64,000 bases of DNA from NCBI RefSeq assembly GCF_030052995.1, contig NZ_JASJPW010000004.1, forward strand, positions 62,001-126,000, given 5' to 3'. The position numbers and the translations under genes were made by a program. The notes beneath the pieces are model-generated. The model saw only the letters and a program-made list of their open reading frames with translations, did not search any database and had not been told where the DNA came from. Shown here in pieces: positions 17,218-37,159 of this stretch; the stretch's first letter is position 1, and each line of letters opens with the position of its first letter. The stretch comes from Gemmobacter sp. 24YEA27 (lineage in GTDB: Bacteria; Pseudomonadota; Alphaproteobacteria; Rhodobacterales; Rhodobacteraceae).

Positions 17218-17242
17218 AACATTCAGAACGGCGGTTTGTTCC
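17218..17242 (-). promoter_or_regulatory. Putative sigma-EcfG promoter of the SDR gene
   Basis: On the minus strand GGAAC (17242-17238) is followed by 16 bases and TGTT (17221-17218). This matches the EcfG form GGAAC-N16-17-CGTT except for the first -10 base. It lies 33 bases before the SDR start. Confidence 0.5.
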
Positions 17243-17312
17243 CGCAAGCGAGCGACCTGGAATGGGGCTTCACGCGACTACTGTCTGACGCAAAGGGAAG
17301 GAGTATGTTCCC

Positions 17313-17666
17313 ATGAGGAACGCAGATCTGAGCTCACTTCTGCCTGCATTGAGTGGAATATCTGTCCTTGTCGTCGAGGATGAGTATCTTCTGGCCACCG
17401 ATCTTGCACAGTTCCTGGAGCGGGGCGGGGCCAGCGTGATCGGCCCCTTTCCCACCCTGACCGAAGCACTGAGCAGTGTCTGCGCTGGTGCAAAACCCGA
17501 TTTTGCCATGCTCGACGTCAACCTGAGGGGCGAGATGGTGTTTCCCCTGGCCGATCACCTCATTGCCGCGGGGATCCCATTCATTTTCATGACCGGATAC
17601 GACACAGCCTCTTTGCCGGCGGCATATGCTGAAATTCCCCGTCTTAGAAAACCGGTGGATCTCTGA
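17313..17666 (+). CDS. Single-domain response regulator (receiver only)
   Basis: This 117-residue receiver has the acidic pair in LVVEDEYLLA, the phospho-acceptor Asp in FAMLDVNLRGE, Thr in IFMTGYD and the Lys of RLRKPVDL, where it stops. The family usually runs 8-10 residues further, so the C-terminal helix is short. There is no output domain; such receivers shuttle phosphate from HWE kinases. Start ATG 17313 follows AAGGGAAGGAG with about 10 bases between. It reads away from the SDR gene. Confidence 0.85.
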   Translation: MRNADLSSLLPALSGISVLVVEDEYLLATDLAQFLERGGASVIGPFPTLTEALSSVCAGAKPDFAMLDVNLRGEMVFPLADHLIAAGIPFIFMTGYDTASLPAAYAEIPRLRKPVDL

Positions 17667-17729
17667 CCCGCCTTGAAGGAAAGGAAAATCTTTGCCAGGC
17701 GGATATCCGCAGATTCGGCGATCATGATC

Positions 17730-17760
17730 CATAACATATTGATAAATATAATATGTTATG
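17730..17760. repeat. AT-rich palindrome between the two receiver genes
   Basis: Two perfect 11-base arms (17730-17740 and 17750-17760, CATAACATATT and its complement) flank a 9-base AT loop. In this GC-rich neighbourhood it stands out strongly. It could be a regulator site or a transcript end for the first receiver; no U-run follows the right arm on the + strand, so a simple terminator is less likely. Confidence 0.5.
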
Positions 17761-17872
17761 AATCACGAGAAGGTTGCGACAATTTCATCTTGCTTCATAC
17801 TGTAGCCATAGTCCGATCCGTGCCGGGCCCGCTGCATCGGAACAGCCGAACCAGCCGCGAGACCGATAAGAC

Positions 17873-18436
17873 ATGCAAAACCTTTCTGGCCGCACAATCA
17901 TGATCGTCGAGGATGACTACTATGTCGCCTGCGAACTCGCTGATCATTTCCGTGCGGCAAAGGCCAGGGTGCTCGGGCCGTTTCCATCCATCACCGAGGC
18001 CACGGATTATGTCGGTGATACCGATCTTGCGGTGCTGGATGTCAATCTTCGGGGACAGAAGGTCTATCCGCTGGCCGATCTTTTGATGGGAGCGGCCATT
18101 CCCTTCGTGTTTTACTCGGCGCATGAGATTGCCAGAATCCCGCGACGGTTCGCCCATATCGCGCGCCTGCCCAAACCACATGAAGCGAGCAAGGCTGTGG
18201 CGCTTTTGCAAAGCCAGATCCATACGCAGACGCTGATCGCCCTCCTGCCGAGGCTCAGGCTCTCGGCGCGGCTGATGCTCTCCGACGCGATGGCCGCAGA
18301 CCGGCTGGTCGAGGCGACTTTGAGGCTCGCATTGCAGGAACATTACAGCCTGCCAACGCTGCCGCCTCTGGGAAAATGGCTGCAACGGCTGATGGAACGC
18401 GTTCTGGCAGAGCGAGGCCGCGATTTCCTGCAATGA
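17873..18436 (+). CDS. Response regulator: N-terminal receiver plus sigma-region-2-like C-terminal domain
   Basis: Residues 1-115 form a complete receiver: acidic pair in IVEDDYY, acceptor Asp in AVLDVNLRG, Ser in FVFYSAHE, Lys in RLPKPHE. Residues about 120-187 (LLPRLRLSARLMLSDAMAAD, RLVEATLRLAL, LGKWLQRLMERV) align by eye with region 2 of the EcfG-like factor encoded 3 kb away (PFLRIYARNL, ADDLVQETLVKAL, LRAWLFTIMRNS). PhyR, the anti-anti-sigma factor of this system, joins a sigma-like domain to a receiver in the opposite order. This could be a rearranged PhyR-like partner of NepR, or a receiver with an unrelated helical tail. No PhyR of normal order is in the window. Confidence 0.75.
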   Translation: MQNLSGRTIMIVEDDYYVACELADHFRAAKARVLGPFPSITEATDYVGDTDLAVLDVNLRGQKVYPLADLLMGAAIPFVFYSAHEIARIPRRFAHIARLPKPHEASKAVALLQSQIHTQTLIALLPRLRLSARLMLSDAMAADRLVEATLRLALQEHYSLPTLPPLGKWLQRLMERVLAERGRDFLQ

Positions 18437-18520
18437 CGGGAGTTTTGCAGGAACCGGGATCAGTTGCCGCTGCCCCGGAGCGTTACAGCAGCCCTCTGCG
18501 CGAGACGACCGGGATATCCA

Positions 18521-20496
18521 ATGAACGATGCTTCCCCTCCTGATCCGAAGAAGGATCCTGCAGATCTTCCCCCTGAGGTTGCGGCGATACGGGAGGGTGC
18601 GGCCGTTCCACCCTCGCGGCATCCGCAAACCGGTACAGCCGCCGCCTTTGCTGCGACGGATGACCTGCCGGTGACATCGCCCCGGCTCCCGGACAGCATC
18701 GTCCGTCAGGCCGATGCCATCGCCGCATATTTCGCCCCTGCTTATGTCGTGATCGACACGCAGTTCGAAGTGCTGCAGTTTTCAGGGCCGATCGCACAGT
18801 TTCTGGAGCCACCCGCCGGCGCTGCGCCCCTGAGCCTGATCCGTCTCGTACACCCGGATCTGCGTGGCGCGCTGGAAGCCGCGCTTTATCGGGCCACATC
18901 CCAGACGAAGCGGGTGGCGCTGTCGCGCCAGCTGATCCGGCCTGACGAGCAGGCCTCTTATGTGAATATTGTCATCGAGCCGCTCAGCCTGGACCATGTT
19001 ACCACACTGGTGGTTATCTTCCGCAATGTCGGACCGGTGGGGATGAGAGCGGACACGCCGTACCCTATGACGATGTTTTGCGGCAGGAAAATGAGGCGCC
19101 GCTGAGCGCTGACCAACTTCAGACGGTCAATCAGGAGCTAGGACATCAGATCCGCGATCTGGCGCGCAGAAATTCAGACATCGGGAACTTGCAGGAAGCC
19201 AGCCAAATCGCCACGATCTTCTTCGACAAAGAATTCAGGCTGCGCAGTTTCACCGCATCTGCGTCAGACCTGTTCCCTCAACTGGAAACCGGTGTCGGCC
19301 ACCCGCTGGATCATTTGGCGGCGCGGCTCAGCTATCCAGAGATCCATGAGGATGTGAAGCAGGTTCTGCAAAGCCAGATCCCGGTTGAACGTAAGGTGAG
19401 TGACACTGCCGGGACGCGCGATTACGCCGTGAAGGTTCTGCCCTGTCGCAGCATTGACGATTACATTGGCGGTACGGTCCTGACCTTCACCGATATCACC
19501 GCTACCCGTCATGCCGAAAGCGCGCTGCAAGACAGCGCGGCGCGGCTGCACAGCCTGATGGAAGGGCTGCCACAGCTGTTCTGGCGTGCCGATGCGCGCG
19601 GCTCGTGGACCTGGGTCAGCCCGCAATGGACCACCTGTACCGGTCAGCCTCTGGAAAGCGCTATGGGCGAGGGCTGGCAGGAACAGGCGCATCCCGATGA
19701 TCTGGATGCCCTGCGGAAAGCCTGGGCCGCTGCCGCAGGCGCGGCGGAAACGCAGGGCTTTGCGGCTGATTTCCGGCTGATGGATGCCACGGAGGGGGGA
19801 TGGCGCTGGTTTCGGACACGCGCCACCGCTGTTCGCGACCGCGACGGGAAGATCATTGAATGGCTGGGGATCTCGACAGATGTGAACGAATTGCTCGGCC
19901 TGCAGGAACAGCAGCGGGCGCTGGTAGGGGAACTTCAGCACAGGACACGCAACCTGCTTTCCGTGGTGCGCCAGGTTTCACAGCGCACCCTGAAATCGGC
20001 GCGCGATCTTGGGGATTTCGGACAGCGGTTCCGTGACCGGCTCGAGATGCTGGCGCGGGTGCAGGGCCTTCTCTCGGATCTCGACGGGAATTCAGGCCTC
20101 GGCTTTGACGCGCTGGTGCAGGCGGCGCTTTCGGCTGTCGGCGCGGATTCTGGCGAAGGCGTGAGCCTTGAAGGCCCAGCAAATGTGTCACTGAGGCCTT
20201 CCGCAGTGCAGTTGCTCTCCATGGCCCTGCATGAACTTGCCACCAATGCGGTGCAGCACGGTGCTTTGGGATCTGCGGCGGGACATCTGCATATTGGCTG
20301 GCAGATCGAGGGAAAAGAGCCATCACGGTTGCACATCCTGTGGCGTGAAACCGGTGTCGCTATGCCCGGGGCCGAACCGGCCTGGGGGCAGGGGCGCGAG
20401 CTGATAGAGCGCGCATTGCCCTATCAGCTTGATGCTGTCACCACCTTGCGGACCGGTCCGGACGGGATCCTCTGCACGATCTCATTGCCAATCTGA
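18521..20496 (+). CDS. Multi-PAS HWE-family sensor histidine kinase (one frameshift)
   Basis: Domain order: disordered N-terminus, a PAS domain of the CheB/CheR-PAS kinase type (YFAPAYVVIDTQFEVLQFSG, about residues 70-170), a second PAS (ATIFFDKEFRLRSFT), a third PAS with PAC (LFWRADARGSWTWVSPQW, DGKIIEWLGISTDV), then the HWE core: ELQHRTRNLLSVV (phospho-acceptor His), LHELATNAVQHGAL, ILWRETGV, GRELIERALPY. The frame shifts once at about 19068. Repaired length is about 658 residues. No membrane segments, so it is cytosolic. Start ATG 18521; TTG 18464 is possible. It is a likely upstream kinase of the NepR/EcfG stress switch. Confidence 0.8.
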
Positions 20497-20539
20497 TCTG
20501 TAGACAGCTCCAGGCGGTCTGCCCGCGAAAAACTCCCGG

Positions 20540-20565
20540 GGAACATTCCGCCGTCCTGGCCGGTT
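20540..20565 (+). promoter_or_regulatory. Putative sigma-EcfG promoter of the small acidic protein gene
   Basis: GGAAC (20540-20544), 17-base spacer, GGTT (20562-20565). It lies 33 bases before ATG 20598. The spacer is one base longer than in the other matches of this window. Confidence 0.45.
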
Positions 20566-20597
20566 GTGGTCACAGAGCCAGCCAAATGGAGGTGAAG

Positions 20598-20873
20598 ATG
20601 CAAAGGGATCGCAAGGACCAGCCAGAGGCCTCGCCCGCCGACGATGCGCGGCCCGTCTTTGACCGGGGCGAAGAGGATTTGCCCTGGCCGCCGGATGCGG
20701 CTTTGCCCGCGGATGACGAGGGCAATATCCTGCCTGGAAATGACCCGCAGGACGAAGACCCGAATGACAACGGCGCCGAGGAGCAGTTCGATCCGGAAGA
20801 TCGCCGTCGCAAGTCGCTTCCTGATCCGACCGCCCCCGATGTGGCAGGATCCGTGACAGAGCAGGATCCTTGA
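20598..20873 (+). CDS. Small acidic hypothetical protein
   Basis: This is a 91-residue, very acidic, Pro/Asp-rich protein (ADDEGNILPGNDPQDEDPND) without membrane segments and probably disordered. ATG 20598 is chosen over ATG 20586 because GGAGG lies 5 bases before it. A sigma-EcfG-type promoter sits just upstream. No family recognised; composition recalls small hydrophilic stress proteins. It converges with the sigma-factor gene. Confidence 0.65.
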   Translation: MQRDRKDQPEASPADDARPVFDRGEEDLPWPPDAALPADDEGNILPGNDPQDEDPNDNGAEEQFDPEDRRRKSLPDPTAPDVAGSVTEQDP

Positions 20874-20997
20874 CTGACCGTGCGGCAACAGGCCGGGCGG
20901 TATTTACAAATGCACCAGACCGGCGGCCGCAGCTCATCAGGCGGGCAGCGTTTCTCAGAGCACTGGCCCGCCACGGAGAGGTTTGTTAATTAAAGGT

Positions 20998-21537
20998 TTA
21001 GTAGTTGACAGCGATCAGGTCGCGCAACTCAGTCATCTGCAGATCATCCATCAGCATTTGCCGGCCGCGGCTGATCCGGCTCTTCACGGTGCCGATGGCG
21101 CAATCGCAGATCCGCGCCACATCCTGATAGCTCTCGCCCACCAGAAAAACGAGTACCAGTGCTTCGCGGTACTGCGACGGCAGCCGCCGGATCGCCTGCA
21201 TCACCCGGTTGCAGGCAATATTTGCGTCATGCACGGGAAAAGATATCACCTGGCCTGAGACGCAGTCCTGGCCGCCAACCGGCTCGCGGTTTCTTTTCAT
21301 GATGCCGGTCAGAAAGCTGTTGCGCATGATCGTAAAAAGCCAGGCCCGCAGATTGGTGCCTGGCTGGAAGCGGTCAATATTTGCAAGCGCCTTCACAAGC
21401 GTTTCCTGGACGAGGTCGTCGGCCTCTGGTCCGCCGCGTGTCAGGTTTCGCGCATAGATGCGGAGAAACGGGATCATTTCGACCACATTCTCCGAAGCTG
21501 CTCCGTCCTGCGGTCGTGTCTGCTTCGAGATGGTCAT
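20998..21537 (-). CDS. ECF sigma factor, EcfG (general stress) type
   Basis: Region 2 is PFLRIYARNLTRGGPEADDLV and QETLVKALANIDRF with LRAWLFTIMRNSFL; region 4 is RLPSQYREALVLVFLVGESYQDVARI followed by CAIGTVKSRISRGR. The 179-residue length fits an ECF factor without extra domains. ATG 21537 follows AGGGAGAC; an upstream ATG at 21561 lies inside the predicted transcript start zone. Assignment to the EcfG group rests on the adjacent NepR-like gene, nearby HWE kinases and receivers, and a perfect GGAAC-N16-CGTT promoter directly upstream, which implies autoregulation. It directs RNA polymerase to stress promoters when NepR is sequestered by phosphorylated PhyR. Confidence 0.85.
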   Translation of the reverse strand: MTISKQTRPQDGAASENVVEMIPFLRIYARNLTRGGPEADDLVQETLVKALANIDRFQPGTNLRAWLFTIMRNSFLTGIMKRNREPVGGQDCVSGQVISFPVHDANIACNRVMQAIRRLPSQYREALVLVFLVGESYQDVARICDCAIGTVKSRISRGRQMLMDDLQMTELRDLIAVNY

Positions 21538-21569: not shown

Positions 21570-21594
21570 AACGGGACCTGGGGAGTTCAGTTCC
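21570..21594 (-). promoter_or_regulatory. Sigma-EcfG promoter of the sigma-factor gene (autoregulatory)
   Basis: On the minus strand GGAAC (21594-21590), 16 bases, CGTT (21573-21570): a perfect match to the described EcfG consensus. The start codon is 33 bases downstream of the -10 box. Confidence 0.7.
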
Positions 21595-21641: not shown

Positions 21642-21875
21642 TCAGGCGGTATCGTCTGTTGCAGCGCCCTGTACGGAAGAGAAGTCAGCTGCACGCTGGT
21701 CAAGCGCCCTGCCGACTTCGGCAGCAAGCGCATGCAGCCGATCCGGAACCGGCTGCGCCATAACCGCTGACAGCAGTTCCTGGCTTGCGGCCCGTATTGC
21801 GGCCCGGATCGGGTCTTCCTCTTCGGAAACCCGCTCAGGATCGGAACCAGGGAACGGAATTACAGAGTTACTCAT
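21642..21875 (-). CDS. NepR-like anti-sigma factor
   Basis: This 77-residue protein has the NepR core ELLSAVMAQPVPDRLHALAAEV, matching the family helix pair with its conserved P-x-P-D-R/H turn. The N-terminus (PFPGSDPERVSEEEDP) is acidic and flexible, as in NepR. NepR binds EcfG until phosphorylated PhyR captures it. ATG 21875 is chosen; GTG 21881 is also possible. It lies upstream of the sigma gene on the same strand, the usual order, with the EcfG promoter between them. No GGAAC-N16-NGTT box was found upstream of it. Confidence 0.75.
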   Translation of the reverse strand: MSNSVIPFPGSDPERVSEEEDPIRAAIRAASQELLSAVMAQPVPDRLHALAAEVGRALDQRAADFSSVQGAATDDTA

Positions 21876-21881
21876 CGGCAC

Positions 21882-22330
21882 AATCCAGCATGCAAGCCTC
21901 GACAGTCAGTTTACCCGGTTCCACCATTTATAACAGCCTGAATAATGCATCTGCTTAACCTGTGTGGGACCACTGCGACACAACAGAGAGCTCCCTGGGG
22001 CGGCAAAGCTACCAGATACCGCGTCGGCGGCCGTGGAATTGCCGTTACAGTGTTGTCTGACGCCGCCCGCCCCAACCCGAATTTTGAGGACAGTGGTAGC
22101 GATGTTGTCGGACTCCGCCAGCCTGTCGCATCGGCCCTCAAAGATCCCGAGCTCTCGCCGGGCATGTTCATCAACCCCGTTTTCACCGCCATTTCCCATG
22201 TCATGTGCTCCTGGCAATGCGGATGCGCCTCTCGCCCCGCGATCAAAGCCAGGCTGATCAAACCGGGAACGTCGCCGGATTGTTCCACAGAAATGGCGGA
22301 GCATAGAATGAGCGCGGGATGCCGTCCGCG
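21882..22330. other. Intergenic stretch without a recognised gene
   Basis: Reading frames are open on both strands here but none has family motifs, a good ribosome site or a sensible start. The segment probably holds the promoter of the NepR gene on the left and leads into the EcfG-type promoter at 22331. Confidence 0.4.
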
Positions 22331-22355
22331 GGAACATTCTTTGCGGTGGTGGGTT
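22331..22355 (+). promoter_or_regulatory. Putative sigma-EcfG promoter of the EF-hand protein gene
   Basis: GGAAC (22331-22335), 16 bases, GGTT (22352-22355). It is followed after about 75 bases by ATG 22430. Confidence 0.5.
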
Positions 22356-22429: not shown

Positions 22430-22957
22430 ATGAAACGTCAAGGTTATGCAGTCCTGATCATCGTCGCGCTGGCGGCACCATCCGCCATGATGGCGCAGGA
22501 AGAAATTCCCGGAATGCCGGATATCTCTCCGGATCAGCAGGAACAGACCACGCAGGGCCTCGCGACTGCTGACTGCGAAGAGCAGCACCGCCTGTTTGAT
22601 ATCAATGGGGACGGCTTTATCAGCCAGTCGGAATCCGAACGTGACTTCGCCCGCGCCGGCATTGACGGCGTGACAATCGGCCCCGATGGGCTGACCCGCG
22701 ACCAGTTTCTCGCCATCTGCGCAGCAGACAGCTGGTCACAACATACGCCCGAAGCCGGCGCTCCGCTGGAAGGCGCGAACAGCTTCACTGAAGAACAGGC
22801 CCGGCAACGCGCGATCGCCTGGAATGTCACCGATGTCTCGGCGCTCGCCCTTGACGAGCAGGGCGTCTGGCGCGGCACCGGCAAGGTCGGCACTGACGCG
22901 GTGGCCGTGGCCATCGATTACAAGGGCAATGTCGTGACCACGCCTGCCGCCCAGTAA
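22430..22957 (+). CDS. Secreted EF-hand protein
   Basis: ATG 22430 follows GAGGAGGAC. Residues 1-22 are a signal peptide ending MMAQ, so the protein is periplasmic. One canonical calcium loop is visible, DINGDGFISQSE (about residues 58-69), and a weaker second one near ITIGPDGLTRDQF. The last 50 residues (ARQRAIAWNVTDVSALALDEQGVWRG) resemble a PepSY-type small fold. Its role may be calcium binding at the envelope under stress. It is upstream of the glycine-zipper stress protein by 29 bases, probably one transcript from the EcfG-type promoter. Confidence 0.7.
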   Translation: MKRQGYAVLIIVALAAPSAMMAQEEIPGMPDISPDQQEQTTQGLATADCEEQHRLFDINGDGFISQSESERDFARAGIDGVTIGPDGLTRDQFLAICAADSWSQHTPEAGAPLEGANSFTEEQARQRAIAWNVTDVSALALDEQGVWRGTGKVGTDAVAVAIDYKGNVVTTPAAQ

Positions 22958-22986: not shown

Positions 22987-23580
22987 ATGGCTGTTCTCAC
23001 CAGAATTTATGACGACGTTGCAACCGCAGAGCGTGCCCGGGCGAGCCTTGACTCACTTGGATGGAGCGATGTCGAGGTCTCGGTCCTGGGCAATGATCGG
23101 GTGCGTGAGCACTACGGGTCGGTCGACGCTGCCCCCAGGGATTTGTCGGGGACCGCAACCGGCGCGGGGATTGGTGCCGTCGCGGGTGGTGGAGCTGGAT
23201 TGCTGGCCGGCCTCGGGATGCTCGCCATCCCAGGGATCGGCCCGCTGGTCGCCGCAGGCTGGCTTGCGGCGACGGCCGTCGGCGCGGCTGGTGGCGCGGC
23301 CGTCGGGGGCACCATTGGCGCCCTGGCCGATATCGGTATCAGTGAGGCCGATGCCCCGGTCTTTCACGAGGCGATGCAGCGCGGCAATGTCGCACTGACG
23401 GTCCGCTTCCCCGAAGAGCGCCGTGCAGAAGTGACCGCAGCGCTTGCCAAAGTCCCCGAGGTCGGCATTGGCGATCTGCGCTCGCGTTTCGAGGGCGGCG
23501 GCTGGCGCTATGATGAGGCCGAGGCCGAGCGCCAGGCGCGTCTGCGCGATCATGACCCGTCGCGCCTTCCGCCGCTGTAA
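22987..23580 (+). CDS. Glycine-zipper general-stress-type protein
   Basis: This 197-residue protein has an N-terminal soluble fold (MAVLTRIYDDVATAERARASL), a central hydrophobic Gly/Ala-rich stretch with repeated GxxxG spacing (about residues 58-115, GAGIGAVAGGGAGLLAGLG), and a C-terminal soluble part repeating the first fold (VALTVRFPEERRAEVTAAL). A homologous gene lies at 30446-31003. Similar proteins are annotated as general stress proteins of unknown function. The start is ATG 22987, with AAGGAG 7 bases upstream. An intrinsic terminator follows at 23597. Confidence 0.75.
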   Translation: MAVLTRIYDDVATAERARASLDSLGWSDVEVSVLGNDRVREHYGSVDAAPRDLSGTATGAGIGAVAGGGAGLLAGLGMLAIPGIGPLVAAGWLAATAVGAAGGAAVGGTIGALADIGISEADAPVFHEAMQRGNVALTVRFPEERRAEVTAALAKVPEVGIGDLRSRFEGGGWRYDEAEAERQARLRDHDPSRLPPL

Positions 23581-25058: not shown

Positions 25059-25108
25059 GAGCCGGGGGATCTCCTTTTGAGTGCAGATGCCGGTGGGGCC
25101 TGACCGCG

Positions 25109-25425
25109 CTATGGCCCGGCGCCGCAGGTCGTCAGTCCGAGGACCGGGAAGAGCGTGAGTAATGTTGCCAACAGACCGATCCAGCCACCGGCGCGGATCA
25201 GGCGGTCGGGAATGTCGCTGCCGCGCGGGGAACACCAGAGGATCGCGCCCGCCCCGCGACGCATATCAGCCAAAGCGATATCAGCGTGAAATGATGCAGA
25301 TCGCCGACCGGGGCAGGGCGCCCGGCCCAGCCCCAGGCGCAGCCGAGCCCATGCGCTGCGTAGATTGCGCAAAAGCTTATGGCCCAGAGGGTCGGGCCAG
25401 ACAGGGCGCGCAGGGGCCAGCTCAT
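25109..25425 (-). CDS. Small membrane protein of the oxidase operon (one frameshift)
   Basis: ATG 25425 overlaps the stop of the oxidase subunit I+III gene (ATGA), so it is translationally coupled. About 105 residues with three membrane segments: LWAISFCAIYAAHGLGCAWG, FTLISLWL and GWIGLLATLLTLFPVLGL. The frame changes at about 25250, then ends LTTCGAGP at 25109. No catalytic motif; position suggests an accessory or assembly subunit of the oxidase. The family was not recognised. Confidence 0.6.
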
Positions 25426-27898: not shown

Positions 27899-28593
27899 GG
27901 GGTGCCCTCCTGGTAGGCGGCAGGCTCTGCCTGATCCGCCGGGCCGGCGGTGCCTGAAAGATCGCTGAAATCGGGCGGGCTGGCCGGATCATAGGCCAGC
28001 ACTTCAAACCGCATCCCGGCATAGCCGATGCCCGAGAATTCGGCAGAGGTGCCGTGGTAGAGGCCGGGCGCTGAAGCCTCGATCCGCAGGAGGTTGTCGC
28101 GGCCGGGCAGGGCGTCCATCTTGCCCGCCAGTTGCGGCACCCAGAAGGCGTGGATCACGTCTTCCGAGCGGATCACGACATCAATCGGCGTTCCGGCGGG
28201 GATGTAAAGACGACCCTCGGTCCCGATCATCGCCCCGTCCGGGCCGGGCTGGTTAAAGCGCCAGTTCCATTGGCGCGCGATGGCTTCGACACGGACAACA
28301 TCCGCGACTGGGCGGGCCTGGATCCGCTCGCCCACCCAGATGCCTGCACCGACCACCGCGATCAGAACGGCAAAGCTGAAGCCAAGACCCATCCCCCTGA
28401 TCCAGAAGCTTTCCGCGGGCGGGCGGACGCCCTGCCGCGCAAAGCCGCGCCAGACCAGTACCAGCACCAGAAGGGTGATCAGTGTGGCGCCTGTCAGCAT
28501 CGCCCACCAGAGGGTCGCGATGTCAGCGGCCGCAGGCCCCTGAGGCGAAAGCGTCGAAAGCGGCCCGCCACATCCGGCCAGCGCCGGAACCAT
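27895..28593 (-). CDS. Heme-copper oxidase subunit II lacking CuA ligands (quinol-oxidase-like)
   Basis: Two membrane segments (LWWAMLTGATLITLLVLVLV and GLGFSFAVLIAVVGAGIWV) are followed by a periplasmic cupredoxin domain with RQWNWRF and DVIHAFWVPQL. Where cytochrome c oxidases have Cys-x3-Cys-x3-His-x2-Met, this protein reads TSAEFSGIGYAGM: both Cys are Ser and the second His is Tyr. It therefore cannot hold CuA, as in CyoA-type quinol oxidases. A lipobox-like LAGC sits near the start. ATG 28593 leaves only 7 residues before that Cys; no upstream ATG is in frame, so the true start may be a non-ATG codon further out. Confidence 0.8.
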   Translation of the reverse strand: MVPALAGCGGPLSTLSPQGPAAADIATLWWAMLTGATLITLLVLVLVWRGFARQGVRPPAESFWIRGMGLGFSFAVLIAVVGAGIWVGERIQARPVADVVRVEAIARQWNWRFNQPGPDGAMIGTEGRLYIPAGTPIDVVIRSEDVIHAFWVPQLAGKMDALPGRDNLLRIEASAPGLYHGTSAEFSGIGYAGMRFEVLAYDPASPPDFSDLSGTAGPADQAEPAAYQEGTP

Positions 28594-28610
28594 CAGCGCC
28601 GCCGCTGGTT
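28586..28610 (+). promoter_or_regulatory. Putative sigma-EcfG promoter of the DUF2231 gene
   Basis: GGAAC (28586-28590), 16 bases, GGTT (28607-28610), 31 bases before ATG 28642. It overlaps the 5' end of the divergent oxidase subunit II gene. Confidence 0.5.
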
Positions 28611-28641
28611 TTCCAAAGGGTACAGAGGAGGAAATTCGCAG

Positions 28642-29184
28642 ATGACACAGGCCAGACGACCCCGCCGCGGGCTGCGTGACCCGATCCATGAACATCGCAG
28701 CTTTCACCGGACGGAATCGAAGATCGCGGTGGCGGGCCACCCGATCCATGCCATGCTGGTGGCCTTCCCCATCGCGCTTTGCGTCAGCACGCTGGGCGCA
28801 GATGCGCTTTACTGGTGGACCGGGGATCTCTTCTGGCCGCGCGCGGCGCTCTGGGCGGCAGGGGTTGGTTTCGGGATGGGTATCCTTGCCGGTGTGGCGG
28901 GCACCGCCGAATTGTTGCTGGTGCCGGGTATCCGTATCCGCGCCGCCAGCTGGACGCATTTCATCCTCGCGGTGATGCTGCTGTCGGTGCTCGGTGCGAA
29001 TTGGGGAATGCGGCTCGCAGATCCCGTCGGCGCGGTACTGCCCTGGGGCTTTCTTGTATCGCTGCTCGCGACCGGGATGACTGCGATGACCGGCTGGCAT
29101 GGCGGCAAGCTGGTTTTCGACTACGGGCTGGGAACGCAGAACGATCATGATGCGCCTCCTCCTCCGCGTGGCGCGAGGAACTGA
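28642..29184 (+). CDS. DUF2231-type four-helix membrane protein
   Basis: This 180-residue protein has a basic N-terminal tail, then VAGHPIHAMLVAFPIALCV (the HPIH motif of this family), three further membrane segments, and a soluble C-terminus with the GWHGGKLVFDYG motif. The two His motifs may bind a metal or haem; the biochemical role is not known. ATG 28642 follows GAGGAGGAAAT. It is divergent from the oxidase operon, with its own EcfG-type promoter, and its end overlaps the convergent CopD-like gene by 40 bases. Confidence 0.75.
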   Translation: MTQARRPRRGLRDPIHEHRSFHRTESKIAVAGHPIHAMLVAFPIALCVSTLGADALYWWTGDLFWPRAALWAAGVGFGMGILAGVAGTAELLLVPGIRIRAASWTHFILAVMLLSVLGANWGMRLADPVGAVLPWGFLVSLLATGMTAMTGWHGGKLVFDYGLGTQNDHDAPPPPRGARN

Positions 29185-30445: not shown

Positions 30446-31003
30446 TCAGCGCCGCCAGGCCCCGGTCTGATGCGCGCGGCGTAAATCGGGCAGCGAACTG
30501 GCATCGGTCTGCGCCAGGGCCGCTTCCACCATGCCTCGGTAAGCCTCCGGGAAACGCACGGCGACAGCAACGCCGCCGCGCCGGAACGTCTCAGTGTAGA
30601 GATCCGCATCCTCTTCCTGGATGCCAAGATCGACCAGCGCCCCGAAAGAAGCCCCGGCCAGCGCGCCGCCCGCCGCGCCGGTCAGCGCCGTCACCAGCCA
30701 CCCGCCGGCGGCGACCGGGCCAAGGCCGGGAATGGCGATAAACCCAAGCCCTGCGAGAAGGCCCGCACTGCCACCCACCGCCGCGCCGAGCGCCCCACCC
30801 GCCGCTGTCGCAGGGGCGGGTTCAGGGATCTGGGTCTTTTCGCCCGTGACCGGATCACGTTCGATCCGCATATCGCGGTAGTCCCTGAGGGCATCCCCGC
30901 CAAGAATCGACGGCTCGACCGAGGGCAAGGCAAGCGCCTCGATATGCTCAACGGCACGCATTGCGGCGGCGTGATCTTGGTACAGCCGGGTCATTACGGG
31001 CAT
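30446..31003 (-). CDS. Glycine-zipper general-stress-type protein (paralogue of 22987-23580)
   Basis: 185 residues with the same layout as the gene at 22987: N-terminal PVMTRLYQDHAAAMRAVEHI, a central GxxxG-rich hydrophobic region (AAGGALGAAVGGSAGLLAGLG, then FIAIPGLGPVAAGGWLVTAL), and a C-terminal VAVAVRFPEAYRGMVEAAL. ATG 31003 follows GGGGAGA. An EcfG-type promoter lies about 88 bases upstream. The two paralogues with the same promoter type suggest an envelope or membrane-associated stress function. Confidence 0.75.
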   Translation of the reverse strand: MPVMTRLYQDHAAAMRAVEHIEALALPSVEPSILGGDALRDYRDMRIERDPVTGEKTQIPEPAPATAAGGALGAAVGGSAGLLAGLGFIAIPGLGPVAAGGWLVTALTGAAGGALAGASFGALVDLGIQEEDADLYTETFRRGGVAVAVRFPEAYRGMVEAALAQTDASSLPDLRRAHQTGAWRR

Positions 31004-31090: not shown

Positions 31091-31115
31091 AACCCATTGG
31101 CCCGCGATTTGTTCC
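31091..31115 (-). promoter_or_regulatory. Putative sigma-EcfG promoter of the second glycine-zipper gene
   Basis: On the minus strand GGAAC (31115-31111), 16 bases, GGTT (31094-31091), identical in form to the boxes at 22331, 28586 and 31208. Confidence 0.5.
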
Positions 31116-31207: not shown

Positions 31208-31232
31208 GGAACAGAGCCTGCCGCAGCGGGTT
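31208..31232 (+). promoter_or_regulatory. Putative sigma-EcfG promoter of the 31285-32677 operon
   Basis: GGAAC (31208-31212), 16 bases, GGTT (31229-31232), 53 bases before ATG 31285. It is back-to-back with the box at 31091. Confidence 0.5.
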
Positions 31233-31284: not shown

Positions 31285-31551
31285 ATGCCACATGGGGGCG
31301 AAGATCCCGATCTGCCGGTCACACCGGTTCCACCCGCAGGCCCGGATGTACCGCAGGATCCGCCCGATACTCCGGTACAGGACCCAAGTCCGGGCCGCCG
31401 CGGCCCCGATATCCCGCAACTCCCCGATGTCGGAGACCCTATACCGGCGCCAGATCGGCCCGAGGGCCCGGTCGCCTCTTCCCGGCACGGCGGGGCAGGA
31501 GCCTTGCAAGCCCGGTCCGCCACCGCCGCGTCAGGGCAGTGCGCGTGCTGA
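31285..31551 (+). CDS. Small Pro/Asp-rich hypothetical protein
   Basis: 88 residues, almost entirely Pro, Asp and Gly in short repeats (DLPVTPVPPAGPDVPQDPPD, then PDIPQLPDVGDPIPAPD), certainly disordered. ATG 31285 follows GGAGG. The last 25 residues change composition (Arg/Ala/Ser/Cys), which may mean a late frameshift at about 31480. No signal peptide. It is first gene of a probable EcfG-controlled operon with the peptidoglycan-binding protein and a small membrane protein. Confidence 0.55.
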   Translation: MPHGGEDPDLPVTPVPPAGPDVPQDPPDTPVQDPSPGRRGPDIPQLPDVGDPIPAPDRPEGPVASSRHGGAGALQARSATAASGQCAC

Positions 31552-31604: not shown

Positions 31605-32384
31605 ATGAGGAAGTCAGTCTCTGTACTTGCGATTTTCGTCTGTCTCGGGGGGCAGTCTCCGGCACAGGCCCAGGGTGACCTGGAAGGTATCATCTCGGGC
31701 GTTGCACAGGGCCTGCTGGTGCAGGAGCTTGACCGCCAGGCCGGCGCCGAGGCGCGGCAGGCGGGAACGCTGAATGGCTGGCGTGCCTATCTGCAACGCT
31801 TCCCAAATGGTCTTTCCCGTGCCGAGGCGGAGCGCGAAATCGCGCGGCTTGGCGGTGTGGTCCGACCTGCCGACCCGACGCCCCTGCCCGCACCTGCGCC
31901 TTCCGACAGTGCCAGCAGTGCAGAAGCGGCACTGGCACTGAGCCGCGACCAGCGGCGCCAGATCCAGAGCCAGCTGACCTCGCTCGGCTATGACGCCGGG
32001 GTGGCGGATGGGCTCTGGGGGCGCAAGACCCGCGACGCCATACGGCGCTGGCAGACGGCAAACGGGGTGGCCGCCAGCGGTTATGTGACCGACCGCCAGG
32101 TCCGCCAGCTTCGTGAACAGGCCGGAACGGTATTGCCGCCCGAGGATCCTGTCGCCATGGACGACCGGGCAGAGGAACGCCTCCTCGGGCTGACGGTCTC
32201 TGAACGCCGCGACCTTCAGCGCCGCCTGACGGTGCTCGGCTACAACACGCGGGGCGCCGATGGTGTTCTGGGTCAGAACAGCCGCAATGCCATCGCGGCC
32301 TGGCAGCGGGACGAAGGGCTGCGGGCCAGCGGCTATATCACCGCCGACCAGCTGCGCGAACTGCGCCGGCAGAGCGGCGGGTGA
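31605..32384 (+). CDS. Exported protein with two peptidoglycan-binding (PG_binding_1) domains
   Basis: Signal peptide at residues 1-23 (SVSVLAIFVCLGGQSPAQAQ). A coiled region follows (LDRQAGAEARQAGTLNGWRA), a Pro linker, and then two PG_binding_1 repeats: RDQRRQIQSQLTSLGYDAG with ADGLWGRKTRDAIRRWQ, and RRDLQRRLTVLGYNTRGADG with LGQNSRNAIAAWQ. 259 residues, no enzyme domain. It probably anchors to the cell wall in the periplasm. ATG 31605 follows AAAGGAGGA. Confidence 0.8.
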   Translation: MRKSVSVLAIFVCLGGQSPAQAQGDLEGIISGVAQGLLVQELDRQAGAEARQAGTLNGWRAYLQRFPNGLSRAEAEREIARLGGVVRPADPTPLPAPAPSDSASSAEAALALSRDQRRQIQSQLTSLGYDAGVADGLWGRKTRDAIRRWQTANGVAASGYVTDRQVRQLREQAGTVLPPEDPVAMDDRAEERLLGLTVSERRDLQRRLTVLGYNTRGADGVLGQNSRNAIAAWQRDEGLRASGYITADQLRELRRQSGG

Positions 32385-32726: not shown

Positions 32727-32752
32727 CCGGGTCAGACAACAGTCTGACCCGG
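32727..32752. terminator. Bidirectional hairpin between the small membrane gene and otsA
   Basis: Perfect 11-bp stem (32727-32737 with 32742-32752) and a 4-base loop AACA. It overlaps the last codons and stop of the otsA frame on the minus strand. No long T-run on either side, so it may work as a transcript-end stabiliser rather than a full terminator. Confidence 0.6.
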
Positions 32753-34167
32753 CGCGCGGCGGTCAACCTCGGCCTGAGAGGCGAAAGCGGGGCGATCCTC
32801 CCCAAGCTGCGCCATAAAGCTCCGGCACCAGGCAAATACATCATGTTCCGCCAACACCGCTGACATAGCGGCATGGCGCGCCTTACGCTCTTCGCGGGGC
32901 ATTGCAACCGCCTGCGCAATGGCACGCGTGATGGTTTCGTCATCATAAGGGTTGACCAGCAGCGCGCCGTCCCGCAGCTCGGCTGCGGCCCCGGCGAAGC
33001 GCGACAGGATCAGAGTGCCGGGATCCTCGGGATCCTGGGCCGCGACATATTCCTTTGCCACCAGATTCATGCCGTCGCGCAGGGGCGTGACCAGCCCGAT
33101 CCGGGCAATGCGGTACAGCCCCGCCAGCGTCTGCTGGCCAAAGGCGCGGTTCACATAGCGCACCGGCATCCAGTCAAGCCGGCTGTGCATGCCATTGATC
33201 TGTCCGGCCAGACCGGCCACTTCCTGGCGCAATGTGTCATATTGCGCGACGCCTTCGCGCGTCTGCGGTGTAACCTGCAAATATGTCACCCGGCCCAGCC
33301 ATTCCGGACTGGATTCAAGAAAACGGCCAAAGGCATGCATGCGCTGCGGCAGGCCCTTGGTATAATCAAGCCGGTCGACACCCATGATCAGCATCCGCCC
33401 CTCGAGCGAGCTGCGGAACTTGCGCATCGCGACATTGCGCACGGCATTCGCGGCGGTACGGCCAAAGGCTGCCGCATCGATGCTGATCGGGAAGGCACCG
33501 ACCTGGAACCGCCGGCCATTGGCGAGATGGGTACCATCCTCGCCCGAAACCGGCTTTGCGATCCCGCTGCGGCTGAGGCAGAGGCTGAAATTCCCGGCAT
33601 CCGGCGCGGTCTGAAAGCCCAGGAGATCATAGCTGGTCATCGCACGCAGCAATGTCTCGCCCACCGGAGGGTAAGAAAAACATCCGGCGCGGGCCAGGGT
33701 ATATGCATGAAAAACCCGATCCTGTTCGTGATCCCCAGTTTTCGCAGTTCGGCCGCCAGCGGGATCAGGTGGTAATCATGGATCCAGATCAGATCGCCTT
33801 CGCGGATCAGAGGCGCAAGACGCCCGGCAAAAAGTCGGTTGACGCGGAAATATCCCTCGGCATCGCGGCGGCTGTAATCTGTGAGGTCGATCCGGTAATG
33901 GCACAAAGGCCAGAGCACGCTGTTTGCAAGGCCATTGTAATATTCCGACAGATCGCGCTCCGACAAATCGCTCAGCGCATAGGTGATCTGGCCTTCCTCA
34001 AAAAGCTTCAGCGGTCCGGGATCGGCCTCGCCAGAGGATTGCCCGGACCAGCCCATCCAGACCCCGCCGCGTTCCTGCAGCGCGGCCCGGACGGCCACCG
34101 CAAGCCCGCCCTGTGGCGGGCGGTCCGGCGCAGGCACACGGTTCGAGACGACGATAAGACGGCTCAC
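32732..34167 (-). CDS. otsA: Trehalose-6-phosphate synthase (one frameshift)
   Basis: GT20 glycosyltransferase joining UDP- or GDP-glucose to glucose-6-phosphate. N-terminus SRLIVVSNRVP, then GGLAVAVRAAL, WPLCHYR, LIWIHDYHLIPLA, MHIPWPAPDVF; after a frame change at about 33660 it continues LLRAMTSYDLLGFQT, MGVDRLDYTKGLPQRM and TPLRDGMNLVAKEYVAAQ with the sugar-nucleotide Glu region. Repaired length about 478 residues, full size. It overlaps the GH15 gene by ATGA. Trehalose protects against osmotic, heat and drying stress and often lies in EcfG regulons; no EcfG box was found before this operon. Confidence 0.85.
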
Positions 34168-36008
34168 AGCACATCCTCCCAGGGGCGCGACAGCGCCATC
34201 GCGGCATTGATCAGCCCGACCATCGAATAGGTCTGCGGGAAATTGCCCCAGAGCTCGCCGCTTTCGACATGGACGCCCTCCGAGAGAAGGCCCAGATGGT
34301 TCCGCCGCGCCAGCACATCGGCGAAGATCCCGCGCGCCTCTTCTTTGCGGCCGGTGCGCACCAGCGCATCGATCAACCAGAAGGTGCAGGCGGTAAAGGC
34401 GGTCTCGGGCGCGCCGAAATCATCGGGGCGGCGGTAGCGGTAGAGGTGGTTTCCGAACCGCAGATCTGCCTCGCAGGCCGCAACCGTAGCCAGAAAGCGC
34501 GGATCATCGGCGGCAATGAACCCGGTCTGCGCCATCAGGAGCAGGCTCGCATCCACCTCATCGCCGCCAAACGCTGCCACGAAGCAGCCGCGCTCAGCGT
34601 TCCAGCCCAGGCGGAAGATTGCCTCGCGGATCTTCGACGCGCTGGCGGACCAGCGCGCGGCCTCGGGCGCGAGGTCCAGCTTGCGCGCGATCCGCGCCAG
34701 CCGGTCGCAGGCGGCCCAGCACATCAGCGCGGAATGGGTATGGACCTCTTCGCGGGTGCGAAACTCCCAAAGCCCCGCATCGGGCTGGTCCCAGCAGGCT
34801 TCGGCCTCGGCCCCCAGCTTTTCCAGCCGGCGGAACAAAGTCTCATCCCCCATATCGGGCAGACGTTCGTCAAAGAAACACTGGATTGCCGCCAGGATGA
34901 CAGAGCCGTAGCCGTCATTCTGCACCTGGGCGAAGGCCGCATTGCCACGCCGGACCGGTCCAAACCCGCGATAGCCCGGCAGGGCGGCGACGATATGCTC
35001 GTCCAGCACCCGCTCCAGCCCGAGGCCGAACAGCGGCTGCATATAGCCGCTGTCAGACCCTGCCGCGAGGTTCGACACATAGCTGAGGTAGTTTTCCATT
35101 GTCCTGGTGGCGTTGAGACTGTTCAGCGCCTGGACGGTGAAATAGCTGTCGCGGAGCCAGCAGAAGCGGTAATCCCAGGTCCGTCCGCTGGCGCCATATT
35201 CCGGGATCGAGGTGGTGAGGGCCGCGACAATCGCCCCGGTTTCCTCGTTCGAGCAGAGCTTCAGCGTGATTGCCGCGCGGATGACCACATCCTGGAAATC
35301 GGCGGGCAGCGCCAGGCTGCGGACCCAGTTCCGCCAGTAATCAGTGGTCTCTTGCAGGAAATGGCGGGCAAGGACCATCGGATGATGCGTCAGGCTCTCA
35401 TCCGGCCCGAGGATAAAAGCCTGCGGATGCTCCAGCAGGAAAGGGGTCTCTGAGAGGATGTAATCGACCGGCGCATCGGTGGTCAGGCGCAGCACCTCCG
35501 GCCCGAGGATATAGCGGATATGGCTGGTGCCGCGCGTCATTCCGGGCGTATTGGTACCATAATCGGATCTTGGCCGCAGAGAAACCGTCAGCCGTGGTGT
35601 GCCGCGCAGCGGCTCGACGATGCGCAGGACGGAATAGCCGCGGAATATGCGGCCATTGCGCAAAAAGCGCGGCGCGAAATCGAGTATCCGCGCCTCATTG
35701 CCGTGTTCATCAGTCAGGATCGTTTCCAGGATGGCGGTATTGCGCAGATAGCGCTGGCGGGCTTCCGTCTGGCGGTCCAGCCGGATGCGCCAGGCGCCGT
35801 CGCGGGCATCGGTTCCCCCGCCCGAGCCGCCGACCAGCAACCCGCAAAAGACCGGATCGCCATCCATGCGCGGCACGCACATCCAGTCCAGTCCGCCGTC
35901 GCAGTCGATCAGCGCCGCAAGGCTGGCATTGCCAATGACGGCGCGATCGAGGCCCGGATCAGTTCTTTGATCAGCACGGGCGCCGTCAGCGAGTGTTTCT
36001 TCTGTCAT
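34164..36008 (-). CDS. GH15 glucoamylase/trehalase-like glycoside hydrolase
   Basis: 614 intact residues. The N-terminal beta domain begins IGNASLAALIDCDGGLDWMCVP; the (alpha/alpha)6 domain has YGASGRTWDYRFCWLRDSYFTV, NDGYGSVILAA, EEVHTHSALMCWAACDRL and the catalytic-base region LLSEGVHVESGELWGNFPQTYSM. This bacterial GH15 branch commonly sits between otsB and otsA, as here, and some members hydrolyse trehalose. There is no signal peptide, so it is cytoplasmic and may tune the trehalose pool. It overlaps otsA and follows otsB by 20 bases. Confidence 0.85.
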   Translation of the reverse strand: MTEETLADGARADQRTDPGLDRAVIGNASLAALIDCDGGLDWMCVPRMDGDPVFCGLLVGGSGGGTDARDGAWRIRLDRQTEARQRYLRNTAILETILTDEHGNEARILDFAPRFLRNGRIFRGYSVLRIVEPLRGTPRLTVSLRPRSDYGTNTPGMTRGTSHIRYILGPEVLRLTTDAPVDYILSETPFLLEHPQAFILGPDESLTHHPMVLARHFLQETTDYWRNWVRSLALPADFQDVVIRAAITLKLCSNEETGAIVAALTTSIPEYGASGRTWDYRFCWLRDSYFTVQALNSLNATRTMENYLSYVSNLAAGSDSGYMQPLFGLGLERVLDEHIVAALPGYRGFGPVRRGNAAFAQVQNDGYGSVILAAIQCFFDERLPDMGDETLFRRLEKLGAEAEACWDQPDAGLWEFRTREEVHTHSALMCWAACDRLARIARKLDLAPEAARWSASASKIREAIFRLGWNAERGCFVAAFGGDEVDASLLLMAQTGFIAADDPRFLATVAACEADLRFGNHLYRYRRPDDFGAPETAFTACTFWLIDALVRTGRKEEARGIFADVLARRNHLGLLSEGVHVESGELWGNFPQTYSMVGLINAAMALSRPWEDVL

Positions 36009-36028
36009 AAACCTCAGTCTCCTGCGCT

Positions 36029-36922
36029 TTACGCTGCGGCGAGGTGGGTCAACCAGGCCCGGAAGGTGGCCGGGCTGGCAATTCGTGCAGTGGCAGCGCT
36101 CGGGCTGTCCTGCGCTCCGATGCGGATCGAGAGCCCCCCCAGGGCATTGGCCGCCTTAAACATGGCCTCATCGGTGAGGTCATCGCCGGCAGCCAGGGGA
36201 TGTCGGCTGTTAAACGGCGGCGATGCCATAAGGTTCCGGAGCGCGGCCCCTTTGTCCGCACCGGCGGGGCAAAGTTCGATGACGCATTTCCCCTCCCGCA
36301 GCCGGTAGCCGGGCCCTGCAATACGCGCGGCCTCAGCCATGATCCGCTCCGCCTCTCCGCGCAGTTCGGGCGCCTGTCGATAATGCAGGGCGAAGGCGGC
36401 TCCCTTATCCTCGGTCAGAAGGCCGAGGCCTCGGGCCGCTGTGTTCATACGGGAAAAGGCTGCCTGAAACGATTGGGTTTCTCTTGTCGGTGCAGCAATC
36501 GCGGCAATCCCGACCCCGGCTGCTGTGCCAGGGCGCAGTTCGGCCCCGTGCAGCCCGGCCACAGTGAAATGATGACCGGGGAAATGATGGCCTGGGAACA
36601 GGGCGTCGACAAAAGCCACCTGGCGCCCGGTCACCAAAGCCAATGCGCCAGCTGTCCTTCTTTCCAGCTGCAGCAGCAAAGCACGCAGCCCCGGTTCCGC
36701 CACCACCTGATCCGGCGTTGCTGCCAGATCGAGCAAAGTTCCATCCAGATCCAGGAAGAGCGCAACATTGCCGGGGTCTGGCAGATTTGGCCCGTCCTCG
36801 GTGACCAGGACAGATGTCCGGGACGATAAGTCCGGCGGTTCTGAAAAGCCCTTACCTTCCGGCGGGACTTCCGGTGACGCTTCCTGTCGATTTTTAGCAA
36901 CCATATCCGGAATAGTGGGCAT
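36029..36922 (-). CDS. otsB: Trehalose-6-phosphate phosphatase
   Basis: HAD phosphatase removing phosphate from trehalose-6-phosphate. Motif I is ALFLDLDGTLLDLA, motif II LALVTGR, then VAGLHGAELRPG, Lys in TEDKGAAFALHYR, and motif IV PLAAGDDLTDEAMF; EGKCVIELCPAGADKGAAL is the family block. ATG 36922 gives 297 residues, slightly long because of a Pro-rich N-terminal tail; ATG 36904 is an alternative, and the frame is open far beyond. First gene of the otsB-GH15-otsA operon. It is divergent from the PNPOx-like stress gene. Confidence 0.85.
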   Translation of the reverse strand: MPTIPDMVAKNRQEASPEVPPEGKGFSEPPDLSSRTSVLVTEDGPNLPDPGNVALFLDLDGTLLDLAATPDQVVAEPGLRALLLQLERRTAGALALVTGRQVAFVDALFPGHHFPGHHFTVAGLHGAELRPGTAAGVGIAAIAAPTRETQSFQAAFSRMNTAARGLGLLTEDKGAAFALHYRQAPELRGEAERIMAEAARIAGPGYRLREGKCVIELCPAGADKGAALRNLMASPPFNSRHPLAAGDDLTDEAMFKAANALGGLSIRIGAQDSPSAATARIASPATFRAWLTHLAAA

Positions 36923-37134
36923 ATCCCACCCGGGTTGCAAACAGGGGCGCGGATCTTCGCCTGGCGATGCACCTGACGACGCAGCCGGGAACGCGTTCAA
37001 CAGGCGATGCAGGGCCACCCGACGACGGTTTCGCGCCTTGTGTGTTCTTCCTGGGCAGGCTGCGCCACACCGCGCCTCTGACGGGCATAAACCTGCTGAT
37101 CGCGCAAATCTTGCGCATCCGGGCCGGAGCGACG

Positions 37135-37159
37135 GGAACAGATCGGTCCTTCGCCAGTT
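37135..37159 (+). promoter_or_regulatory. Putative sigma-EcfG promoter of the PNPOx-like gene
   Basis: GGAAC (37135-37139), 16 bases, AGTT (37156-37159), 28 bases before ATG 37188. Confidence 0.45.

Follow-up and report, generated by a model that had tools for sequence, protein, structure and literature searches.

A probable local EcfG regulon around a second general-stress module on a putative plasmid of Gemmobacter sp. 24YEA27

Introduction

In Alphaproteobacteria, the general stress response is commonly presented as a switch encoded at one locus, PhyR-NepR-EcfG. In a 64,000-nucleotide stretch of Gemmobacter sp. 24YEA27 (contig NZ_JASJPW010000004.1, positions 62,001 to 126,000; hereafter the window), a gene for an EcfG-type sigma factor is surrounded by copies of the motif GGAAC-N16/17-NGTT. 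An earlier note, made from the sequence, took eight of these boxes for promoters of a single stress regulon clustered around its own switch. The questions that the locus raises are whether the boxes are promoters, which sigma factor reads them and what kind of switch they belong to. Our analysis indicates that these boxes and a ninth at 22261(-) are probably read by an EcfG-type sigma factor and form the local regulon of a second general-stress module, itself carried by a probable RepABC-type plasmid. Below, C1–C4 denote contigs of this genome (C4 carries the window), G with a number denotes genomes (G000 is this one), and L with a number denotes fetched loci or stretches.

The boxes are in excess only at spacers of 16 and 17 nucleotides

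All eight boxes were recovered with the positions and strands previously assigned to them, seven with a 16-nucleotide spacer (N16) and only that at 20540 with N17. As had been claimed, each precedes a credible start codon, with 32, 32, 32, 74, 31, 87, 52 and 28 bp (in order of coordinates) between the -10 element and the start; this distance is 28–32 bp at five of the eight sites. The element reads GGTT at the five sites so described (20540, 22331, 28586, 31091 and 31208), and TGTT, CGTT and AGTT at one site each. The CGTT box, at 21570(-), belongs to the sigma gene and has the perfect form GGAAC-N16-CGTT. Six of the eight boxes therefore have the C or G of the EcfG promoter class GGAAC-N16/17-C/GGTT, and two have A or T.

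The density check against shuffled sequence proposed in the earlier note yielded 13 matches in the window, compared to a mean of 1.85 and a maximum of 5 in 100 dinucleotide shuffles. Because shuffles lose codon structure, spacer length was varied as a control that needs no shuffling. In the window, N16 gave 10 and N17 gave 3 matches, whereas each of the 17 other spacers (8–26) gave 0–5, 25 in total. In 32 Rhodobacterales stretches (630,519 bases), the counts were 178 for N16 (146 of them intergenic) and 47 for N17, compared to 9–25 for each of the remaining spacers between 9 and 26. A second set of 59 stretches, mostly from Hyphomicrobiales, gave 347 and 169, compared to 18–47 for each other spacer. 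On the spacer controls, chance or base composition was rejected as the source of the motif. The two sets were drawn from 78 of 80 loci (L040 and L055 were dropped as duplicates), 11 of 20 further stretches, the window and L104. The Rhodobacterales set consists of stretches around ecfG-like genes or from C4, and includes the window, L104 and L084, which is near-identical to the window. Of the nine further stretches dropped, two were duplicates and seven had a distant sigma gene (≤41% identity) and few or no nearby boxes; dropping these seven biases the counts towards signal. Genes were called with a simple, home-made gene finder, which misplaced the start of coxB and, in the scans of the window and C4, missed the small genes at 31285 and 21642. 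The four remaining matches in the window, 36213(-), 37480(+), 45676(-) and 62258(+), fall within genes and were set aside as promoters; the shuffles lead one to expect about two such matches.

The predicted promoters and the genes around them are as follows:

16437..17185, minus strand: short-chain dehydrogenase (SDR) gene, over more than one frame (16946-17185, 16437-16958); adh_short E 7e-46 in the middle piece, no match in the first piece
17218..17242, minus strand: predicted promoter GGAAC-N16-TGTT, 32 bp before the SDR gene
17313..17666, plus strand: single-domain receiver protein; Response_reg E 1.9e-6, just under the cut-off; nearest to PRK13435-type/PhyR receivers; no exact box in the window
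17873..18436, plus strand: REC-sigma2 protein, with N-terminal receiver, C-terminal sigma2-like part and no sigma4; start at 17873 or 17900
18521..20496, plus strand: PAS-HWE histidine kinase gene, in overlapping frames 18521-19105 and 19078-20496; HWE_HK E 4.5e-14 in the latter
20540..20565, plus strand: predicted promoter N17-GGTT, 32 bp before the small acidic protein
20598..20873, plus strand: small acidic protein, no family match
20998..21537, minus strand: EcfG-type extracytoplasmic function (ECF) sigma factor, the second ecfG of the genome by domain and structure matches; start probably at 21537 rather than 21561
21570..21594, minus strand: predicted promoter of ecfG itself, GGAAC-N16-CGTT, 32 bp before the start at 21537
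21642..21875, minus strand: NepR-like protein with a PVPDR core, directly upstream of ecfG, no box of its own
22261..22286, minus strand: ninth promoter-like site, N17-GGTT, followed in relatives by a BON-domain gene
22331..22355, plus strand: predicted promoter N16-GGTT, before the EF-hand and glycine-zipper genes
22430-22957, plus strand: EF-hand-like secreted protein, family match under the cut-off
22987-23580, plus strand: glycine-zipper protein, family match under the cut-off
28586..28610, plus strand: predicted promoter N16-GGTT, 31 bp before the DUF2231 gene, overlapping the probable start of the divergent coxB
28642..29184, plus strand: DUF2231 membrane protein, E 1.3e-36
30446-31003, minus strand: second glycine-zipper protein, sub-threshold match
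31091..31115, minus strand: predicted promoter N16-GGTT, 87 bp before the second glycine-zipper protein
31208..31232, plus strand: predicted promoter N16-GGTT, 52 bp before the small protein 31285-31551
31285-31551 and 31605-32384, plus strand: small protein, then peptidoglycan-binding protein (by Pfam)
37135..37159, plus strand: predicted promoter N16-AGTT, 28 bp before the PNPOx-like gene
37188..37667, plus strand: PNPOx-like (Pyrid_ox_like) protein, E 6.4e-24

The start of coxB was set at 28593 by eye, which makes the site at 28586 divergent, although the gene finder had placed it inside coxB. The products named earlier for the clustered regulon are supported: SDR, the peptidoglycan-binding protein and the PNPOx-like protein were confirmed by Pfam, whereas the glycine-zipper proteins gave only sub-threshold matches.

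Boxes are kept upstream of diverged orthologues

Boxes were sought within 200 bp upstream of the orthologous genes in seven relatives of the locus (L082, L083, L086, L089, L001, L085 and L088), with the near-identical L084 excluded. The EF-hand gene has a box at all four of its diverged orthologues (L082, L083, L086 and L089), and the spacer sequence is not conserved. A box precedes ecfG in five of seven relatives (48–87% identity), including all five that have an adjacent NepR-like gene. SDR has a box in five of five (L082, L083, L001, L085 and L088), 21–141 bp upstream of a start that was estimated by an assumed offset, and the small gene at 31285 in the only relative available (L086). Conserved boxes with diverged spacers are the pattern expected of promoters. 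As promoters, the boxes are thus strongly supported by sequence comparison, and they are very probably EcfG promoters, because the excess is limited to spacers of 16 and 17 and the boxes recur upstream of diverged orthologues.

For three of the boxes, the evidence consists of the motif and its distance to the start. The only other copy of the DUF2231 box is in the near-identical L084, the L086 relative of the second glycine-zipper gene sits behind the EF-hand gene without a box of its own, and the PNPOx-like gene has no relative for comparison. No box was found within 200 bp upstream of the genes for the NepR-like protein (0/5), REC-sigma2 (0/2) or the kinase (0/2) in the diverged relatives.

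The ninth site, N17-GGTT at 22261(-), had been overlooked and is as good a site as the other eight. It is kept in L083 and L084, and L082 has another box at the same place. In L083 and L082, an intact BON-domain gene lies downstream of this position (Pfam E 1.5e-13 and 6e-17, respectively). The corresponding frame of the window, 21906-22199, has no family match and, by eye, only short fragments in common with the BON gene. The BON-domain gene (21906-22260, minus strand) seems to have decayed in the window, with its promoter left behind.

The window encodes a second EcfG on a probable plasmid

The sigma factor of the window contains Sigma70_r2 (residues 30–92) and Sigma70_r4_2 (residues 119–170), no sigma3, and matches the PhyR_sigma2 model with E 4e-15. 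Its best match among solved structures is 5uxx (E 2.6e-32), ahead of SigH (8e-22); we take 5uxx to be Bartonella EcfG, although the structure match names it only as RNA polymerase sigma factor. Its gene also has an EcfG-type promoter of its own. A canonical PhyR is encoded at C1:3176150 (~3.176 Mb), with an EcfG beside it and a NepR (E 1.9e-16) between them. Judged from these matches, the window sigma gene is the second EcfG of the genome, and the switch in the window is therefore a second and apparently self-contained one.

The genes of the module are arranged in the order receiver, REC-sigma2, PAS-HWE kinase, small acidic protein, ecfG and the adjoining NepR-like gene. This order is kept in L082 and also in L083, but there without a match for the small acidic protein. 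Orthologues of the NepR-like protein match the Pfam NepR model weakly in two cases (E 0.015 and 0.085) and not at all in two others.

C4 comprises 193,733 bases (~194 kb) and encodes a RepC-type replication protein (RP-C) at C4:45150 (E 4e-28); RepC is also encoded on two other contigs of the genome. C4 is therefore taken as a probable RepABC-type plasmid. Although it makes up 3.8% of the DNA, it carries 17 of the 131 GGAAC-N16/17-SGTT sites of the genome (binomial p 1e-5) and 8 of the 13 sites of the stricter GGAACAWW form (p 5e-9). Just beyond the window end, at C4:127344-133995 (L104 1344-7995), there is a second cluster of eight N16/N17 matches, two of which overlap on opposite strands. 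Among its genes, those for a DUF892 protein (E 4.5e-60) and for a copper/zinc superoxide dismutase (E 1.8e-38) are each preceded by a box. Outside the window, C4 has seven N16 matches (six intergenic), all in this second cluster, and two N17 matches, one of them in the cluster; positions 60001–62000 of C4 are absent from these counts. The idea of one regulon around its own switch thus stands insofar as the boxes cluster around an ecfG, but this switch is the second of the genome, with the canonical set on C1, and the island is part of a probable plasmid.

REC-sigma2 resembles PhyR with its domains in reverse order

In REC-sigma2, the receiver comes first and the sigma2-like part second, and sigma4 is absent, whereas PhyR is defined by N-terminal sigma2 and sigma4 and a C-terminal receiver. 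The protein lacks this defining order and is therefore not classed as PhyR. About 55 full-length relatives of 171–199 residues were collected. Of the 49 members aligned, 45 hit the PhyR sigma2 model at E 0.01 and 27 hit the receiver model at this threshold. The phosphorylation residues of a receiver (E13/D14, D56 and K101) are nearly invariant in these 49 sequences, and the longest invariant run of the family, AADRL at 141–145, followed by E147, is located in the sigma2-like part. In a profile search, the family hit the receivers of SdrG and PhyR, and residues 120–183 of the profile hit the sigma factor 5uxx (E 2e-4). The predicted model of REC-sigma2 (mean pLDDT 82.8, pTM 0.61) has three long C-terminal helices. 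A Foldseek search with this model returned SdrG at the head of its best 50 matches, with PhyR among them; by title, all are response regulators or receiver-containing chains. These matches do not point specifically to the sigma2-like part, and the fold search is therefore neutral on that half. By eye, REC-sigma2 ends near where region 2.4 of EcfG would begin; with sigma4 also missing, direct binding of the protein to a promoter is not to be expected.

Full-length matches are rare and occur in at least five of 296 sampled genomes of the bacterial family (G000, G030, G085, G230 and G279), a lower bound because no more than 11 candidates were scored per genome. Relatives are also encoded on named plasmids of Paracoccus, Roseivivax, Martelella, Shinella, Mesorhizobium, Ensifer, Sinorhizobium and Tistrella, which span three alphaproteobacterial orders. 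Of 14 records with near-full-length matches, 12 plasmid stretches were examined (L151-L162), with two near-duplicates left out. An EcfG-like gene is present in eight of them, all from Rhodobacterales or Hyphomicrobiales, and NepR-like open reading frames, recognized by motif only, in four (L151, L152, L154 and L156). In these 12 stretches, N16 gave 72 and N17 gave 14 matches, compared to 0–11 for each other spacer, and in L154 a box precedes REC-sigma2 by 66 bp. The four plasmid members checked with Pfam have the receiver first and sigma2 second, mostly below the cut-off.

By analogy with PhyR, REC-sigma2 may work like this protein, and we infer partner switching in the plasmid module. The PAS-HWE kinase would sense stress and phosphorylate the receiver of REC-sigma2, perhaps via the single-domain receiver protein. 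The sigma2-like helices thereby freed would displace the sigma factor from the NepR-like protein and bind there instead, as in the PhyR-NepR-EcfG precedent. The released EcfG, together with RNA polymerase, would transcribe the GGAAC-N16/17-NGTT promoters and drive its own gene through the CGTT box. It is conceivable, although we hold it only tentatively, that REC-sigma2 represents a new class of anti-anti-sigma factor ("mini-PhyR") which, with the NepR-like protein and the EcfG paralogue, constitutes a portable plasmid stress switch carrying its own regulon in at least two alphaproteobacterial orders. No published description of the receiver-then-sigma2 arrangement was found in a search limited to open-licence papers, in the parts of them available. 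The rearranged protein may be new; the promoter type is already known.

The promoters of ecfG genes are mostly CGTT, and GGTT is not supported as a lineage signature

The earlier note had proposed GGTT as a lineage-specific -10 variant, which does not hold. The C/G alternative has already been published: a figure legend of PMC12148442 states GGAAC-N16-17-C/GGTT, and GAAC-N16,17-C/GGTT is given in PMC4814048. For Sphingopyxis, which belongs to another order, 14 versions of the -10 box are reported, and the promoters that both EcfG proteins transcribed in vitro include one with GGTT upstream of a putative EF-hand gene (PMC7083833). That GGTT is the usual form here was borne out to the extent that G is the commonest first base of the -10 element at Rhodobacterales targets (73/122), but this is not significantly above the control spacers (17/35; Fisher p 0.25). 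G is also the commonest in the mostly Hyphomicrobiales set (127/343 targets compared to 39/87 at control spacers; p 0.22). G exceeded C at 21 of 26 non-tied loci, but GGTT was rejected as a lineage signature in view of the control spacers. The data thus do not support GGTT as either lineage-specific or evidently selected.

The promoters of the ecfG genes themselves differ from their targets. With near-duplicates removed, C is the first base at 26 of 34 ecfG promoters compared to 82 of 279 targets (p 1e-7), and A follows GGAAC at 4 of 34 compared to 132 of 279 (p 4e-5). Against control spacers, C was found in 14/21 ecfG promoters vs. 7/35, and in 18/19 vs. 20/87. C remained at 24 of 31 ecfG promoters after the window and five related loci (L104, L081-L084) were dropped; four more loci of the genus were kept. 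The hypothesis came from one window and its test mostly from other loci, and orthologous promoters are not fully independent. A CGTT box kept for the switch gene, with targets free in the first base, forms part of the same tentative proposal of a portable switch.

Which factor reads the boxes

The whole-genome scan suggested in the earlier note was uninformative for the bare motif and informative for a stricter one. GGAAC-N16/17-SGTT occurs 131 times in G000 compared to 130 times for the reversed control, so that a chromosomal regulon could not show up in this way; inspected by eye, the numbers of GGTT and CGTT sites are no guide to whether a genome has PhyR/EcfG matches. The strict form GGAACAWW-N13/14-SGTT does separate genomes of the same genus. 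It occurs 13, 9, 11, 11, 6 and 16 times in G000, G001, G002, G005, G007 and G008, respectively, all of which have a window-type EcfG (at least 48% alike), with controls of 1, 3, 1, 1, 3 and 2. In the seven other genomes (G003, G004, G006 and G009-G012), the counts were 0, 2, 3, 6, 1, 3 and 4, with controls of 0, 1, 4, 2, 3, 0 and 1. Across the 13 genomes, strict-site counts follow the window-type EcfG and not the canonical one (Mann-Whitney p 0.004), in a grouping of few genomes that was made post hoc, after the loci had been seen. This pattern favours the plasmid-type factor as the reader of the boxes, possibly with cross-talk.

Several observations weigh against the proposed plasmid module and its local regulon. 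The equality of the SGTT count with its reversed control is one of them. In addition, two of the seven ecfG relatives are boxless (L085 and L088; 49% and 50% identity); a box precedes the receiver gene in two out of three diverged relatives but not in the window; and the gene for the small acidic protein has no box at L082 or the near-identical L084 (0/2; 0/1 without L084). Most large operons of the island also lack a box, the kinase and SDR genes are split in the assembly, and the NepR-like protein of the window has no Pfam NepR match. Single-member sigma2 matches, including that of the window protein (E 0.0012), are mostly under the Pfam cut-off where scores were seen, and in 4 of the 12 plasmid stretches no EcfG-like gene lies in the 6–8 kb to either side of REC-sigma2. 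The last two points also favour a different role for REC-sigma2, outside partner switching: the NepR-like protein would be controlled by the canonical PhyR, and REC-sigma2 would be a phosphate sink or kinase regulator, like single-domain receivers. SdrG is a single-domain receiver of the general stress response, and the REC-sigma2 receiver is closest to it in fold and among the closest in sequence. However, one would then have to account for the longest invariant run of the family lying in the sigma2-like part and for the 45 of 49 members that match the PhyR sigma2 model, and we regard this role as rather unlikely.

The boxes could also be real EcfG promoters read mainly by the chromosomal canonical EcfG, with the plasmid sigma factor accessory or nearly redundant and the plasmid carrying targets of the host response. 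The canonical set is present on C1, the CGTT box of the plasmid ecfG may place this gene under the chromosomal factor, and G009, which has no window-type EcfG, has as many strict sites as G007, which has one. EcfG paralogues are known to share promoters: in PMC7083833, the Sphingopyxis pair was assayed in vitro on the same five promoters, with different strength. On the other hand, genomes of the same genus with the canonical set and no window-type EcfG have few strict sites (for example G004 2, G006 3, G010 1, compared to 9–16 in G000, G001, G002, G005 and G008), and 13 sampled stretches of C1-C3, including the canonical locus, had no clear excess (N16 8 and N17 4, compared to 2–10). We therefore consider a mainly chromosomal reader unlikely, more so than the sink role of REC-sigma2. 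Least of all do we expect the boxes to have accumulated by chance in G+C-rich DNA or to be the -35 elements of a different ECF factor. The genome-wide parity of the S form with its control fits such a view, but the excess at spacers of 16 and 17 alone, its mostly intergenic position and the persistence of boxes upstream of orthologues whose spacers have changed make it extremely improbable. The reading that we prefer remains a local regulon of the plasmid-borne EcfG.

Comparison with known general-stress systems

By its gene content, the window module is in type a variant of the PhyR-NepR-EcfG system of Alphaproteobacteria. It shares with that system the EcfG sigma factor, the adjacent NepR-like gene, the HWE kinase, the GGAAC-N16/17-C/GGTT promoters, the box before ecfG and stress-type targets. 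It differs in that it has no canonical PhyR but the reversed REC-sigma2 without sigma4, in its divergent NepR-like protein and in the location of both module and targets on a probable plasmid. A second, non-canonical, plasmid-borne and autoregulated EcfG beside the chromosomal set is described for Rhizobium etli (EcfG2, PF00052; PMC3892343). According to that paper, neither a response regulator nor an anti-sigma gene lies close to PF00052, and its search yielded no motif for EcfG2-regulated genes. In the window, by contrast, the motif is evident, and both a receiver-containing regulator and a NepR-like gene lie alongside. Rubellimicrobium thermophilum also has two general-stress loci per genome, one with an HWE kinase, and the C/GGTT consensus, but PhyR is found at both loci (with crystal structures) and a single NepR is reported (PMC12148442). 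Sphingopyxis granuli, with EcfG1 and EcfG2, has in common with the window a variable -10 element and GGTT before a putative EF-hand gene, as at the EF-hand-like gene here; it belongs to a different order, and the genes beside its ecfG2 are named phyR (PMC7083833).

If the proposed reading is true, a plasmid with its own sigma factor, probable anti-sigma factor, kinase, rearranged PhyR-like protein and ready-made promoters would illustrate how stress tolerance can pass between bacteria as a unit. A mimic that consists of sigma2 only would allow a direct test of which half of PhyR suffices to displace NepR. The CGTT contrast between the switch gene and its targets is a simple promoter prediction that can be tested in vitro.

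Other features of the island

Within the island, the 220 bp upstream of the cox, NDH-2, otsA/otsB and GH15 genes contain no exact box, so that regulon membership is not shown for everything in the interval. A scan of otsA, otsB, GH15, NDH-2, coxB and CtaG that tolerated one mismatch yielded no exact box, and one-mismatch matches appeared for CtaG only.

Four genes span two frames in the assembly: SDR (16437-17185), the HWE kinase (18521-20496), trehalose-6-phosphate synthase (32732-34167) and, by eye, a second SDR-like gene (38474-39210). The splits are due either to errors in the assembly or to genuine decay on the plasmid. In the near-identical copy L084, the SDR match is likewise in two pieces. 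G008, of the same genus, has two copies of the module on different contigs, of which L084 is near-identical to the window and L083 is diverged. The boxless NDH-2 and cytochrome oxidase genes of the island (23778-29148) have counterparts beside plasmid modules elsewhere, with NDH-2 in L151 and L154 and an oxidase in L152.

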